Positions 27,499 through 33,792 of a stretch of 64,000 bases of DNA are shown here, piece after piece. The notes under the pieces were generated by a model, which saw nothing but the letters and a program-made list of their open reading frames with translations, searched no databases and was not told the DNA's origin. This stretch comes from Candidatus Dependentiae bacterium (lineage in GTDB: Bacteria > Babelota > Babeliae > Babelales > JACPOV01), in contig JACPOV010000008.1 in the NCBI GenBank assembly GCA_016191325.1, positions 1,160,351-1,224,350 of the forward strand. The letters are read 5' to 3'. The translations under genes were made by a program, and so were the position numbers. Position 1 is the stretch's first letter; every line of letters starts with the position of its first letter.

Positions 27499-29466
27499 AT
27501 GTTTGCACAGGTACGTTTACTCAATGGATTTCACGAATCGTTATGGTACGAAGTACCGCATGAGTTAAAAGAGCTCACCGTTGGTATGATTGTAAGCGTT
27601 CCATTGCGTGCGCGTGTGCTGCCTGCATTGATTCAAAAGATTTCGAGCACGCGGCCGAATGTTTCTTGGCAATTACGCTCAATCGAAGGGATTGAAAAAG
27701 TTCCTGAAGATGTGCATTATCAAAAATTTATTAATCAACTTGCGGATTACTATCAACTTTCGCCTCTCTATTTTGCGCAACGTTTACGTTCGTTTTTAAC
27801 GCAAAAAGAGCATGAAATTGAATTAGCGGTAGCTAATTCAAACCTGCCAGAAGCGAAAATAGTAACATTGACCGATGAGCAGGAGTATGCAGTGAATCAA
27901 GTAACAAAAAAGATTGATGGGCAATCGTACTCACCATTTTTACTTCATGGATTAACAGGATCTGGAAAAACGGAAGTATATAAAAAAGCGCTGCAGCACG
28001 CGATTAACAATAAAAAGTCAGCGCTGGTTTTATTACCAGAAGTTTCATTGGCAGTACAATTTACGCAGCTTTTTCGCGTAGCGATGCCCGAGTGCACGAT
28101 TTTTGGATTTCACAGCGCAGTGGGTATAAAAGAAAAGCGAGCGTTATGGCAAGCGCTTGTGCAGGGTGCGCCGCTCATTATTATCGGAGTGCATTTGCCC
28201 GTAATGCTGCCGATTAAAAATTTAGGCATAATTGTTGTTGATGAAGAACATGAAGTTGGTTATCAAGAAAAAAAACATCCGCGTATTAACAGCAAAGAAG
28301 CAGCTCTCGTGCGTGCACAAACCGCATGTATTCCTATAATTCTGGGGTCGGCCACCCCTTCAATCTCTTCGCTGTACGCTGTGCAGCAAAAAGGCTGGCA
28401 ACTTCTTGAATTAAAAAATAGATATGCGGGATCTCTTCCTCGCATTGAAGTGGTTCAATTTGATAAAAATAAAAAAAGGCCAAATTTTTGGGTAAGCAAA
28501 GAGCTCTTTAATGCAATAACCGATAGACTTTTGAAAAAAGAGCAGACGATTTTATTTTTAAATCGACGCGGGCATAGTTTTTTCGTGCAATGCACAAAAT
28601 GCGGCGAGATTGAGCGATGTACACACTGCTCAGTTACCCTTACGCTGCACGATCATGAACAATTATTATGCCATTATTGTGGCTTGAAAAAGCAAATGCC
28701 TCCAGCGTGTGTAGGATGTGGTGCCGATAAAACCTCTTTTTTGAAAAAAGGGATCGGTACGCAACAGCTCGTTTCTGTTATTCAATCTCTTTTTCCATCG
28801 GCGCATATTGAACGGGCCGACGTTGATGCCACCGTGAATAAAAAAAAGTGGCAGCAAACATTAAAATCGTTTCACGATGGGGCGATCGATATTTTGATAG
28901 GGACGCAGACGATCACTAAAGGGTATCATTTTCCAAAGGTGACCCTGGTTGGCGTTATTTGGGCCGATTTGAATTTACATTTTCCTATGTTTAACGCTGC
29001 AGAAACAACGCTACAGCAATTAATTCAAGTGGCGGGCAGGGCAGGCAGAGCGAGCCATGATAGTTTAGTTATTGTGCAAACCATGAGCGAGCATCCGATC
29101 TTTTCGTTTCTGAATGAAACCGATTATATAAAATTTTATGAAACCGAAATGATAACGCGCCAAGAAATCGAATATCCGCCTTATGCGCGCTTTGTAGAGA
29201 TTGAACTTAAGCATACGGATGAAGCAATTGTGGAACGAGAAGCACAGCAACTTGTGCAACAACTTAATGCCAAATCACAATCAACTTCTTTAGCTGTGCG
29301 CGTTTTGGGCCCAGCGCGGCCATTGGTTCATAAAGTGAATAATTTATGTAGCAGAAAAATGTATTGCAAGGCATCAACAATGCTTGCAATACAGCGTCTT
29401 TTTCAATCAATTGATGAAAATAGCTATCAAAGCAGTATCTATTTTACTCCGCATCCGTTGAGTTAA
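27499..29466 (+). CDS. priA: Primosomal protein N' (replication restart helicase PriA)
   Basis: A superfamily 2 3'-5' helicase that reloads the replisome at stalled forks. The 655-residue length is on the short side (often ~730). It has an N-terminal DNA-binding domain, Walker A GLTGSGKTEVY (about 151), the DEEH box (VDEEHEVGYQ), and GSATPS. Eight zinc-binding Cys (CTKCGEIERCTHCS, CHYCG, CVGCG) and GTQTITKGYHFP with QVAGRAGRAS follow. All motifs look intact. Its 3' end overlaps a convergent pseudogene by 23 bases. The preceding 254 bases are AT-rich with no gene. Confidence 0.96.
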   Translation: MFAQVRLLNGFHESLWYEVPHELKELTVGMIVSVPLRARVLPALIQKISSTRPNVSWQLRSIEGIEKVPEDVHYQKFINQLADYYQLSPLYFAQRLRSFLTQKEHEIELAVANSNLPEAKIVTLTDEQEYAVNQVTKKIDGQSYSPFLLHGLTGSGKTEVYKKALQHAINNKKSALVLLPEVSLAVQFTQLFRVAMPECTIFGFHSAVGIKEKRALWQALVQGAPLIIIGVHLPVMLPIKNLGIIVVDEEHEVGYQEKKHPRINSKEAALVRAQTACIPIILGSATPSISSLYAVQQKGWQLLELKNRYAGSLPRIEVVQFDKNKKRPNFWVSKELFNAITDRLLKKEQTILFLNRRGHSFFVQCTKCGEIERCTHCSVTLTLHDHEQLLCHYCGLKKQMPPACVGCGADKTSFLKKGIGTQQLVSVIQSLFPSAHIERADVDATVNKKKWQQTLKSFHDGAIDILIGTQTITKGYHFPKVTLVGVIWADLNLHFPMFNAAETTLQQLIQVAGRAGRASHDSLVIVQTMSEHPIFSFLNETDYIKFYETEMITRQEIEYPPYARFVEIELKHTDEAIVEREAQQLVQQLNAKSQSTSLAVRVLGPARPLVHKVNNLCSRKMYCKASTMLAIQRLFQSIDENSYQSSIYFTPHPLS

Positions 29467-29811
29467 TTTTATCAAGAGCAAATGCTGCGTTTGCTAGCGT
29501 TGTGGTAACGCTCCCGTTTTTAATAGTTTTAGATCCATCGGCGCCTAAATCGATAAGTATAAGACAGGCTTGATGAGAAAAATTACTTCGCGAATCGAAC
29601 GATTCAATTGTTGATTTCAATAACTTCGTGGCTTGTTCGTTAGAAAGATGCATCGAGTTTGGCGTCCGTAAAACATTGAGCCACATTTGGGGATTATTTC
29701 TTTCTGAAGCGGTCGCTAATTCTTTGGTTAAATCCTGTACATCCATTCCATATGCGGCATTATTAAAACGAGCAATAAAAATAAAAGCGGGAAAGTCGTA
29801 GTTGGTTTCAT
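29444..29811 (-). pseudogene. Secreted small protein with apparent frameshift
   Basis: From the ATG at 29811 the first frame encodes a good signal peptide (FPLLFLLLVLI) but stops after 27 codons. The adjacent frame continues from NNAAYG into MDVQDL and 100 further codons, ending at 29444. A single-base loss in a T run near 29765-29785 would explain this. The restored protein has the Gly-Met-Asp junction of other secreted proteins here and is paralogous to the next gene upstream (shared ATKLL and LI-D/E-LGA). It is either a real recent pseudogene or an assembly indel. Confidence 0.65.
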
Positions 29812-29870
29812 GGTACTCAATGAATAAAAGAGTTTAGCAATAGTTGCGTCATTAGCAGTTCATGCGAAGA

Positions 29871-30227
29871 TTATTGTGCATCGGAAGGTTGTGCTGGTGG
29901 CGTTTTTTGTGCTCCGAGCTCAATAAGTTTTTGTTGGATTGAGGAAGTGCCATTGATTCCATCTAATTTGTGTAAAAGCTTCGTTGCATGATTTGCAGAT
30001 ATATCACCTTTTTGTACATATTGAATCATCTTGTACATCGATTTTACATTCTTGTTAGTAAAACATTTAGATAAAAATTCATAAGTTTCTTCTTCGTTAG
30101 GTTTTTTGCAATCTTCTGATTCTGAAGCGATTTCTTTGTTGTTTCTCTTAGCGTCCATACCGTTTATGCAAAAGGAAGTGACGAGCAAAAAAATAACATG
30201 AATTTTAATAGGCGATTTTATCTTCAT
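29871..30227 (-). CDS. Small secreted protein, ATKLL family (unknown)
   Basis: A 118-residue protein. The signal peptide is IHVIFLLVTSFCING, followed by MDAK. The helical mature part contains HATKLLHKLD and LIELGAQK, matching the frameshifted neighbour at 29444. The start is ATG 30227; an in-frame GTG at 30239 overlaps the stop of orn. It is probably translated with orn, since it lies immediately downstream on the same strand. A Pro-rich tail ends it. Function unknown. Confidence 0.7.
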   Translation of the reverse strand: MKIKSPIKIHVIFLLVTSFCINGMDAKRNNKEIASESEDCKKPNEEETYEFLSKCFTNKNVKSMYKMIQYVQKGDISANHATKLLHKLDGINGTSSIQQKLIELGAQKTPPAQPSDAQ

Positions 30228-30238
30228 TTTTACTACCA

Positions 30239-30805
30239 CTAAAGAGATGGAATAAAAAAGTGGGTGCGATAATGTTGTAACTCTTTTATTGATTGCTCAA
30301 TATCTTCCAGAGCTCGATGATTATCAGCTTTTTGAAAATTAATTTTTTCATTTGCTGGGTACCAACGTTTGATTACTTCTTTGATTGATGAAACATCAAT
30401 TAAGCGATAATTAAAATAATTGAGAAGTATTGGCATGTATTTTTGCAAAAATATGCGATCTTGCCATACGGAATTGCCGGCTAAGCGTGCACTATTTGGT
30501 TTGCAGAAAAGTTTTACAAATTCGAGCGTTTCTGCTTCAGCTTGTTCGGTTGTAATAGTGGATTCTTGACTCGCGCGCGTTAATCCTGAAACGCCGTGTG
30601 TTTTTTTGCACCATTCGTTCATATGATCAAGAATCGAATCGGGCTGATGAATTACAAGATGGGGACCGTGTGCAATTAAATTGAGATTACCATCGGTGAT
30701 AATTGTCGCAATTTCAAGAATAACATCGTATTCGATTTCCAATCCTGTCATTTCCAAATCGATCCAGACTAAATAATCATCTCTTTTTGTGATAGCTTTA
30801 TTCAT
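30239..30805 (-). CDS. orn: Oligoribonuclease
   Basis: A DEDDh 3'-5' exonuclease that degrades 2-5-nucleotide RNAs (nanoRNA) left by other RNases. Motifs are WIDLEMTGL (Exo I, D and E), NSVWQDRIFL (Exo II) and DNHRALEDI (Exo III with His). The length of about 188 residues is normal. The ATG at 30805 is preferred; a TTG at 30838 would add eleven residues, and neither has a clear ribosome-binding site. Essential in several bacteria lacking NrnA. Confidence 0.95.
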   Translation of the reverse strand: MNKAITKRDDYLVWIDLEMTGLEIEYDVILEIATIITDGNLNLIAHGPHLVIHQPDSILDHMNEWCKKTHGVSGLTRASQESTITTEQAEAETLEFVKLFCKPNSARLAGNSVWQDRIFLQKYMPILLNYFNYRLIDVSSIKEVIKRWYPANEKINFQKADNHRALEDIEQSIKELQHYRTHFFIPSL

Positions 30806-30913
30806 AGGTTTTTTCGATTGCTTACGAATGGTGTTCAACTATAGCCATTCTCGTTATACACTAATTAATATACTCATACTATCGAAAACGAGCGGATAAG
30901 GGCAAGGAGTTTT

Positions 30914-33151
30914 ATGGATAAAATACGTATTGGCGTGCTTATGGGGGGCAAATCGCTCGAACGCGAAGTTTCATTCAACTCGGGGCGCACCGTTTGCGAT
31001 CATCTTGATACATTCAATTTCGAAGTTGTTCCGCTTTATCAGAATATTACAGGTAAACTTTTTATTTTGCCGCTGCGTTTTTTGCATCGTGGTAAAACAA
31101 CCGATTTTGAGCATCGGCTTGATGCGGAAGCGCAAGCGGTCAGCTGGGACGATCTTAAAAACTTTGTTGATGCAGTATATATAGCGCAGCATGGGCGCTA
31201 TGCAGAAGATGGCACCATGCAGGGATTTCTTGAAGTACTTGGCATCCCATACGTTGGCAGCAAAGTTTTTGCAAGTGCTTTGGGGATGGATAAAATCATG
31301 CAAAAAAAAATACTCAATGCGAGCGGGGTTATGGTTCCGCGCTGCGTAGCGATAAGCGCGCATGAGCTACATCAAAAATTAGATGTACAAACTCTTCTTT
31401 CTGATATGGAAAAAGAAAAAATAATTTTCCCTTGCGTTGTAAAGCCGGCTAAAGAAGGTTCGAGCTTTGGTATTACCGTAGTACATTCTCCCGATGATTT
31501 GCTTGCGGCTATAAAAAAAGCGGCTCATTGCGACAACGGATTGATCCAATCTGTTATTATCGATGAAAAAATAACTGGTATGGAATTTACTACTATTATT
31601 ATTACCGATAATGATGGCAATCTTGTTCCACTTTCTGTAACTGAGGTGGTGCCAAACCCTGCGCTCGAATATTTTGATTATGAACAAAAATATATGCCTG
31701 GAAAATCGGTGCTTTTTACACCTGCGCGTTGTACGCAAGAAGTTTTGGAAAAAATCCAAGAAGCGTGCTGCAAAGTAATGCGTGTGCTCGAATTTAAAAA
31801 CAGCGCACGTATCGATGGAATTTTAGCGCCCGATGGTTCCATCTTTATTATTGATCCAAATACTTTTAGCGGTGCGAGCCCTTCAAGTTTTATGTTTAAA
31901 CAAGCCGCGGAACGCAATATGAGCCACACGCAGCTTATTAATCATTTAATTGAAACTGAGCTACGTGCATATGGTAAACTAAGTAAGAGAGCCGATCTTG
32001 AAAAACGAATGGGAAAAATGGAAGGCGATTCAAAAAAGAGTTCTGAAAAAAAAATACGGGTTGCTGTTTTAATGGGAGGGGCATCTAATGAAAAAGAAAT
32101 TTCCCTTGAATCTGGCCGAAACGTATTTTATAAATTATCGCCGCATAACTATGATGCAATTCCTGTTTTTGTAAATCATCAGCTAGAGCTTTTTATTCTT
32201 GATCAAAAACTTTTGGTTTCAAGTTCAACTGGCGAGATAGAAAAAAATGTAGACCGTGCGCAAAAAATTTCTTGGGCGTCATTGCCCGAGCATGCAGATT
32301 TTGTATTTATCGGGCTGCATGGCGGCGCAGGAGAAAATGGCTCCGTTCAGGGAACGCTTGAAATGTTGGGACTTCCGTATAATGGTTCTTCAGTTCTTGC
32401 CAGTGCGTTGTGCATGGATAAGTGGAAAACGAATTCGTTCTTACGATCAGAGGGATTTGAAGTACCTCGCGGTTTGCTGCTTGAAAAAACTTCATGGGAA
32501 AATGATCAAAAGCGCATAAAAAAAGATCTCGCTGAGCAGGTCGGCGCATTTCCGTATATTGTAAAGCCGCATGATGATGGTTGCAGCGTTATGGTTAGCA
32601 AAGTGAATAACGATGATGAACTTGAGCGAGCAATGCAAACAATTTTTAATCAAGGCAAAACTGCAGCGCTCATTGAAGAATTAGTTGTCGGGATGGAATT
32701 GACCGTTGGTGTGCTTGGTAATCATGAACCTCAAGCATTGCCACCAAGCCAAGCGGTAGTTGCCGGATCAATTTTATCAATAGAGGAAAAATTTTTACCC
32801 GGAGCTGGAGAAAATCAAACTCCTGCATTACTGCCAAAAGCGACATTAGAATATGTTCAGCGCGTTATAGAAAAAGTTTTTTCTGCAGTTGGTTGTAGAG
32901 GATATGCGCGCATTGATTGTTTTTATCAAACGGCCGAGCAGAGCGCAACGGGAAAAGAGCGAGTGGTTATTTTAGAAATTAATACGCTGCCTGGCCTGAC
33001 GCCGGCCACATGTATTTTTCATCAAGCGGCGGAACTTGGCATGAGGCCGATGGATTTTATTAATCAAATTGTTCAGCTCGGCTTGCAAGCTCATGAAGAA
33101 CAATTTGTCGGTGTTTTGGAAAAAACATTAGAAAGTGCAACGGCAAAATAA
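30914..33151 (+). CDS. ddl: Tandem D-alanine--D-alanine ligase (two fused modules)
   Basis: Ligates two D-Ala for peptidoglycan. A single 745-residue protein contains two complete ATP-grasp Ddl copies, about 1-365 and 378-745, joined by a Lys/Glu-rich linker. Copy 1 has GGKSLEREVS, KPAKEGSSFGI, EYFDYEQKYMPG and SARIDG, but its metal-ligand segment reads IIDPNTFSG (usually E-x-N-T-x-P-G). Copy 2 has GGASNEKEIS and the normal ILEINTLPGLTP, but lacks the Y-x-x-K-Y lid, reading SIEEKFLPG. Each copy therefore departs at a different active-site element. GCAAGGAG precedes the ATG. Confidence 0.93.
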   Translation: MDKIRIGVLMGGKSLEREVSFNSGRTVCDHLDTFNFEVVPLYQNITGKLFILPLRFLHRGKTTDFEHRLDAEAQAVSWDDLKNFVDAVYIAQHGRYAEDGTMQGFLEVLGIPYVGSKVFASALGMDKIMQKKILNASGVMVPRCVAISAHELHQKLDVQTLLSDMEKEKIIFPCVVKPAKEGSSFGITVVHSPDDLLAAIKKAAHCDNGLIQSVIIDEKITGMEFTTIIITDNDGNLVPLSVTEVVPNPALEYFDYEQKYMPGKSVLFTPARCTQEVLEKIQEACCKVMRVLEFKNSARIDGILAPDGSIFIIDPNTFSGASPSSFMFKQAAERNMSHTQLINHLIETELRAYGKLSKRADLEKRMGKMEGDSKKSSEKKIRVAVLMGGASNEKEISLESGRNVFYKLSPHNYDAIPVFVNHQLELFILDQKLLVSSSTGEIEKNVDRAQKISWASLPEHADFVFIGLHGGAGENGSVQGTLEMLGLPYNGSSVLASALCMDKWKTNSFLRSEGFEVPRGLLLEKTSWENDQKRIKKDLAEQVGAFPYIVKPHDDGCSVMVSKVNNDDELERAMQTIFNQGKTAALIEELVVGMELTVGVLGNHEPQALPPSQAVVAGSILSIEEKFLPGAGENQTPALLPKATLEYVQRVIEKVFSAVGCRGYARIDCFYQTAEQSATGKERVVILEINTLPGLTPATCIFHQAAELGMRPMDFINQIVQLGLQAHEEQFVGVLEKTLESATAK

Positions 33152-33462: not shown

Positions 33463-33792
33463 TTAATCTAAGCCACCCAAGCCTACTTTTTCAGGATTGC
33501 GTGCCGCATATACTAAGCCGATGCTAGCGGCGCCAAGCGTAGCTCCAGGAAGTTTTTGAAAAATAGCTTGCTTTGTGCTGGTAGCGGGTGGGCAATTTTT
33601 CAAACACGGCCATGCACCACCAAATTTCCAAAATGAGTATACGCTTGCCATTCCGCATAATGCGCTGGCACCATAAAGCCAGGTCGAAGCTTTTTTATAG
33701 AATGGTTTTGCGTTATTGTTATTCTCAACTGCGTTTGAATTTTGCATTGCAATACCGCACATTGCTGCTAAAACTAATGCTTTAAATTTCAT
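33463..33792 (-). CDS. Small membrane protein (unknown)
   Basis: A 109-residue protein. N-terminal signal (ALVLAAMCGIAMQNSNA, then VENNN), a hydrophobic segment near 38-55 (WLYGASALCGMASVYSF), two Cys around a Pro-rich turn, and a second weakly hydrophobic stretch (GATLGAASIGLVYAA). TAGGAG lies before the ATG. No relatives recognised. Probably an inner-membrane or envelope component. Confidence 0.6.
   Translation of the reverse strand: MKFKALVLAAMCGIAMQNSNAVENNNNAKPFYKKASTWLYGASALCGMASVYSFWKFGGAWPCLKNCPPATSTKQAIFQKLPGATLGAASIGLVYAARNPEKVGLGGLD

Follow-up and report, generated by a model that had tools for sequence, protein, structure and literature searches.

A Tandem Fusion of Two D-Ala-D-Ala Ligase Modules with Opposite Active-Site Signatures Is Near-Universal in Dependentiae

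Introduction

D-Ala-D-Ala ligase (Ddl) is a textbook antibiotic target and is known as a dimer of identical subunits. In a 64,000-nucleotide stretch of a Candidatus Dependentiae genome (hereafter, the window), one gene was predicted from its sequence to encode two full Ddl modules joined by a linker, with deviations in their active sites that complement each other. Are both halves of such a protein ligases, and if so, do they have the same job? The question reaches beyond a single locus. An ancient, phylum-wide fused Ddl with opposite fixed signatures is a natural experiment on the weight of each active-site residue, and it bears on how the two sites of a dimer become different. It also yields a concrete prediction on the cell-wall chemistry of Dependentiae (Babelota/TM6), tiny intracellular bacteria that parasitize protists and form a phylum still largely without cultures.

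Results

Two Complete Ligase Modules in One Gene

Both parts of the protein are recognizable as Ddl (table 1). The Pfam domains Dala_Dala_lig_N and Dala_Dala_lig_C are each found twice, well above cut-offs, and either half alone also scores (E values of 4e-23 to 1e-38), confirming the predicted composition of two full modules and a linker. The same solved Ddl structures are matched by both halves over their length. Within one protein, N and C halves are 27–35% identical, and the linker spans 16–29 aa in 57 relatives. Against NCBIfam Ddl subfamily models with cut-offs of 243–262 bits, single halves score 227–237 bits and the whole protein passes by summing its two modules. Curated models of the Van type are not reached, with best single-half scores of 167–195 bits (VanG; cut-off of 495 bits). 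Small ORFs of 100–122 aa flank the fusion gene (window 29444–30239 and 33463–33792 (-)); they have no Pfam match, and some have a signal-peptide-like start.

Table 1. Features of the fused ddl gene, in window coordinates
Feature	Position	Strand	Evidence
Tandem Ddl-Ddl fusion gene, 745 aa + stop, ATG start	30914..33151	+	ORF read; Pfam and NCBIfam profiles
Shine-Dalgarno-like AAGGAG, 4 nt before ATG	30904..30909	+	Read directly
N-terminal Ddl module, aa 1-352	30914..31969	+	Pfam N+C domains; residue alignment; AF2 model
N module KEGSSFG, S150 equivalent retained	31451..31471	+	Residue alignment
N module omega-loop lid FDYEQKY, aa 254-260; Y212, K215, Y216 retained	31673..31693	+	Residue alignment
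N module metal loop IIDPNTFSG, aa 312-320; E270 to Asp, P275 to Ser	31847..31873	+	Residue alignment
Linker, about aa 353-378	31970..32047	+	pLDDT <50 at aa 361-377; dN/dS 1.6 over 26 codons
C-terminal Ddl module, aa 379-731	32048..33106	+	Pfam; residue alignment
C module DDGCSVM (DDGCS aa 554-558), S150 equivalent is Cys	32573..32593	+	58/58 relatives
C module omega loop LSIEEKF, aa 621-627; K215 retained, Y216 to Phe	32774..32794	+	55/55 relatives
C module metal loop ILEINTLPG, aa 686-694, canonical	32969..32995	+	Residue alignment

The AF2 model of the full chain, built on a 24-sequence alignment, has a pLDDT of 86.9 and a pTM of 0.81; only the linker and the C-terminal tail fall below a pLDDT of 50. 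Such a pTM for a two-module chain suggests that the modules have a defined arrangement. Foldseek matches the model one half at a time (VanG, DdlA, TtDdl, and DdlB), with VanG and Ddls as the best folds. Ddl is usually a dimer, and positions conserved across Ddl dimer interfaces have been named (PMC6899670). These positions are largely retained in both halves. On the basis of pTM and interface residues, we infer that the two modules associate in the manner of a Ddl dimer, such that the pseudo-dimer envisaged at the outset would be a covalent version of the usual one.

Opposite Active-Site Signatures in the Two Halves

Residues are numbered as in E. coli DdlB and were compared in an alignment of 40 proteins and then in one of 63. 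The N module of the window protein retains E15, H63, K97, K144, S150, Y212, K215, Y216, R255, D257, and N272; its lid and the Asp in place of the metal-binding Glu are where the original prediction had placed them. Across relatives, E15, H63, K97, K144, S150, Y212, K215, Y216, R255, and D257 are conserved in N halves, with Tyr216 present in all 61. Position 270 of genuine N halves is always acidic (Asp in 58 of 60, Glu in 2; 63-protein alignment). One apparent Gln at this position was rejected as the misaligned C gene of a split pair. P275 is replaced by Ser or Thr in most N halves, and the metal loop is off the family consensus at E270, P275, and T278. In the relative L018, the metal loop of the N half is degraded (DTQPFPN) and the C half is canonical.

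In the C module of the window protein, residues that bind ATP, metal, and the oxyanion are all retained, and its metal loop is canonical, as had been read. The accompanying claim that the lid is absent was too strong; Lys215 and an aromatic residue, Phe216, remain, with Y210, D211, and Y212 replaced by Leu, Ser, and Ile, respectively. The change of S150 to Cys is a deviation beyond those predicted. K97, K144, K215, R255, D257, E270, N272, and P275 are present in C halves without exception. S150 is Cys in every C half (58 of 58), Y216 is Phe (55 of 55), Y210 is Leu (40 of 40), and Y212 is Ile, Met, or Leu, with Gln or Val once each. The deviations are conserved and, as proposed, roughly complementary, falling in the metal/phosphate loop of copy 1 and in the substrate-lid triad of copy 2. 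The N half has the E15-S150-Y216 triad and Tyr lid of enzymes that make only D-Ala-D-Ala, and the C half lacks them (S150C, Y216F, and Y212I). Conversely, the C half has the mark of D-Ala-D-Lac/D-Ala-D-Ser-type ligases, which is Phe or another non-Tyr residue at Tyr216.

In a comparison set of 47 single-module Ddls, mainly from one Clostridia phylum and from plasmids, S150 and Y216 are present in all 47, position 270 is Glu in 46, and position 212 is Tyr in 45. The combination of S150C and Y216F lies outside this set. The lone exception at position 270 (L133; G116:C15:436400-438400) has Asp (LIDINTIPG), and no other strong match to Ddl was found in its genome of 1.6 Mb (G116); Asp at this position is thus compatible with a working Ddl.

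Distribution of the Fusion

Matches to the fused Ddl are found in 87 of 101 Dependentiae genomes, and in 80 of these 87 the junction between halves is in one frame, so a search of other genomes, as originally advised, does recover the fusion. It is full and uninterrupted in 73 genomes (71 in a single alignment; G071 and G099 in two same-frame pieces). In seven further genomes, the junction is in one frame but a contig end, a run of N, or one stop interrupts the fusion. The arrangement had been called unusual. This holds among Ddl at large and not within Dependentiae, where the fusion is near-universal.

The remaining genomes vary. Genomes G037 and G098 encode the halves as complete neighboring genes, which overlap in one genome and lie 5 nt apart in the other, and the split genes keep N-type and C-type signatures, respectively. 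In three genomes, a break leaves just one half visible, and G034 has a decayed C-half remnant. G033 (L068) has an N half only, in a frame of 402 aa, and the 200 nt that separate it from the contig end contain no start of a C half. Its lineage (f6) shows decay of Ddl, and the C half may have been lost naturally here. A seeming 2.5-kb insertion in the N-half lid of G065 was rejected because it is a run of N.

A scan of genome contigs yielded 25 close relatives, nearly all titled Dependentiae, Babeliales, or TM6; one is split (L025) and one truncated (L023). An assembly chimera or frameshift was rejected as the source of the fusion because the same architecture is present in 80 genomes and in most of these 25 loci. 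In 17 of 25 loci, the fusion gene adjoins a divergent oligoribonuclease gene, and PriA often lies further out; this recurrent neighborhood indicates a stable chromosomal locus. Two records labeled as other taxa, L016 ("Epsilonproteobacteria") and L018 ("Parachlamydiaceae"), encode the Dependentiae-type fusion and their labels are probably wrong; L016 appears identical to L041 from phylum genome G031, with equal alignment figures.

Origin and Selection

Maximum-likelihood analysis in quick mode resolves N halves as one clade and C halves as another, each with SH-aLRT support of 100. The two clades likely group together relative to 30 single-module Ddls (SH-aLRT of 95.5), in a tree with limited outgroups and long branches. 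These groupings are most simply explained by a single duplication and fusion that preceded the radiation of the phylum, and the split genes by later fission in at least two lineages. A viral origin was rejected: there was no PHROG match and four matches to viral contigs were distant. Distant Ddl-like genes are present on IMG/VR contigs classed as viral (L148–L151).

Each half has a dN/dS of 0.097 when compared with a congener (88% identical), and the two halves are under equal purifying selection. The linker is unconstrained in the same comparison. Conservation is slightly higher among C halves, with an average identity of 56.3% against 53.9% for N halves. Because the half-specific deviations are fixed over phylum-level divergence and dN/dS is about 0.10 in both halves, they are not attributable to chance or sequencing error. 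The fixed changes suggest that the two halves have had different jobs since before the phylum diversified.

The Only Ddl of the Cell

Neither protein nor Pfam searches found a second Ddl in the window genome (1.27 Mb, 98.9% complete), and no additional stand-alone Ddl was found in 100 other Dependentiae genomes. An ordinary Ddl elsewhere that does the work, named in the original prediction as a possible refutation, is hence absent from this set. MurF and alanine racemase (Alr) are present in the window genome, placing the enzyme in the ordinary pathway from D-Ala to MurF. Genome G035 is without Ddl, MurF, and Alr together, and this joint absence fits a report that Babela massiliensis has lost murein genes (PMC4378268); Chromulinavorax destructans, a cultured member of the phylum, is reported to have them, with the mur pathway complete (PMC6561590). 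Other combinations occur. G004, a one-contig genome, retains a strong MurF match and has neither a Ddl nor an alanine racemase match. Of 68 high-quality Dependentiae genomes, 19 have no alanine racemase, and many of these 19 retain the fused Ddl and MurF.

Discussion

Because a single subunit forms each Ddl active site, a division of labor inside one shared site, one form of the divided labor first proposed, is unlikely; two differently specialized sites are a better fit. Ligands have been reported in both sites of a Ddl dimer (PMC5717164). We give roughly even chances to the explanation that the fused protein is an intramolecular heterodimer with two live ligase sites that differ in acceptor specificity and that arose through one duplication and fusion in the Dependentiae ancestor; its turnover, specificities, and packing are inferred. 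Under this explanation, the ancestral ddl gene would have been duplicated and fused to become the only Ddl of the cell, with each half a complete ATP-grasp ligase site. The N half would combine the triad and Tyr lid of D-Ala-D-Ala ligases with an Asp that takes the place of Glu among the metal ligands. The C half would have its ATP, metal, and oxyanion machinery whole and its substrate lid re-tuned by S150C, Y212I, and Y216F, and would probably join D-Ala to another acceptor or treat D-Ala differently. The dipeptide or dipeptides would be passed to MurF for peptidoglycan.

Two live sites with different acceptor use are favored because the fixed changes of the C half are at positions of acceptor specificity. 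Phe versus Tyr at this site decides between depsipeptide and dipeptide activity (PMC5996685), and DdlB with Tyr216 changed to Phe and Ser150 to Ala gained weak D-Ala-D-Lac activity (PMC7691350). Counting against it, the loss of Y212 and Y210 from the C half goes beyond these Tyr/Phe precedents. It may also be that not every relative needs both halves, given the degraded N-half loop of L018 and the seemingly lone N half of G033. A more specific version, in which a covalent heterodimer is dual in specificity across the phylum, the N half making D-Ala-D-Ala, the C half using another acceptor (D-Lac, D-Ser, Gly, or similar), and precursors being mixed or not ending in D-Ala, seems to us unlikely. 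The true D-2-hydroxyacid dehydrogenase family has one strong match in the window genome and strong matches in just 12 of the 101 phylum genomes, making D-lactate doubtful as a universal acceptor of the C half. If the C half does use another acceptor, the peptidoglycan ends of Dependentiae would be non-standard, and this would have nothing to do with drug resistance.

The suggestion that one half is inactive was not borne out, given the exchange of Asp and Glu at position 270 of N halves (58 and 2), Asp in the only strong Ddl match of G116, the retention of all ATP, metal, and oxyanion residues in copy 2, and equal purifying selection. It can nevertheless be framed in two ways. The C half alone could be the working D-Ala-D-Ala ligase, with the N half binding D-Ala or ATP weakly as dimer partner or sensor. 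Consistent with this, catalytic residues never vary in C halves, which are also the slightly more conserved, and the N-half metal loop is off consensus at three positions and degraded in L018. Yet the N half retains the full substrate triad and lid, including Tyr216 in 61 of 61, and is under purifying selection equal to that on the C half, Asp is tolerated in a sole stand-alone Ddl (L133), and G033 seems to have lost the C half rather than the N half, leaving this explanation rather improbable. The reverse, an N-half ligase with an ATP-binding regulatory pseudoenzyme that does not bind D-Ala as C half, draws on the loss of S150, Y212, and Y216 from the C half only and on the N-only ORF of G033. 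A non-catalytic half would not need R255, D257, E270, N272, K97, K144, and K215, all of which are fully conserved in the C half, and the C half evolves slightly slower; we regard this as improbable.

Alternatively, both halves could make plain D-Ala-D-Ala, the fusion merely tethering a dimer and the residue differences reflecting neutral drift or kinetic tuning. That Ddl is usually dimeric (PMC6899670) is compatible with this, as is the crystal structure of Y216F DdlB (1iow) with ADP and phosphorylated phosphinate, from which Phe does not abolish binding. However, S150C and Y216F are in every C half, in no N half, and in none of the 47 single-module Ddls, and opposite signatures in two paralogous halves would not become fixed over a phylum by drift. 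We consider plain ligation by both halves improbable.

Comparison with Known Systems

The window protein represents a known enzyme family in a new architecture, within a survey of Dependentiae and one Clostridia-containing phylum. In 120 genomes of the latter, no tandem Ddl was seen. Clostridial frames of ~720 aa (L115–L121) were rejected as further tandem Ddls; two consist of a Ddl-like ATP-grasp and a C-terminal region that by eye resembles a peptidase, and the others have one matching stretch. No description of a tandem Ddl fusion was found in the literature searched, an incomplete search.

The C half is like the Phe-type D-Ala-D-Lac ligase LmDdl2 in having Phe at Tyr216 and a non-Ser residue at S150 (PMC7691350, PMC5996685). 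It differs from Phe-type Ddl and Van ligases in the additional loss of Y212, in having Cys and not Ala at 150, and in scores far below VanA and VanG cut-offs. Both modules share with E. coli DdlB (2dln/1iov) the Pfam N and C domains, the Ddl fold, and K97, K144, R255, D257, N272, E15, and H63, but the window protein has two modules per chain, Asp at E270 in the N half, and Cys, Ile, and Phe at S150, Y212, and Y216 in the C half. The bifunctional UDP-N-acetylmuramate--L-alanine ligase/Ddl (MurC-Ddl; NF011171) likewise has Ddl within a fusion protein; it pairs one Ddl module with another enzyme, whereas in the window protein the Ddl module is present twice and MurC is absent. Although its chemistry differs from that of Ddl and the fused Ddl has no known two-step relay or tunnel, the large subunit of carbamoyl phosphate synthetase, like the window protein, has tandem duplicated ATP-grasp modules with diverged roles in one chain.
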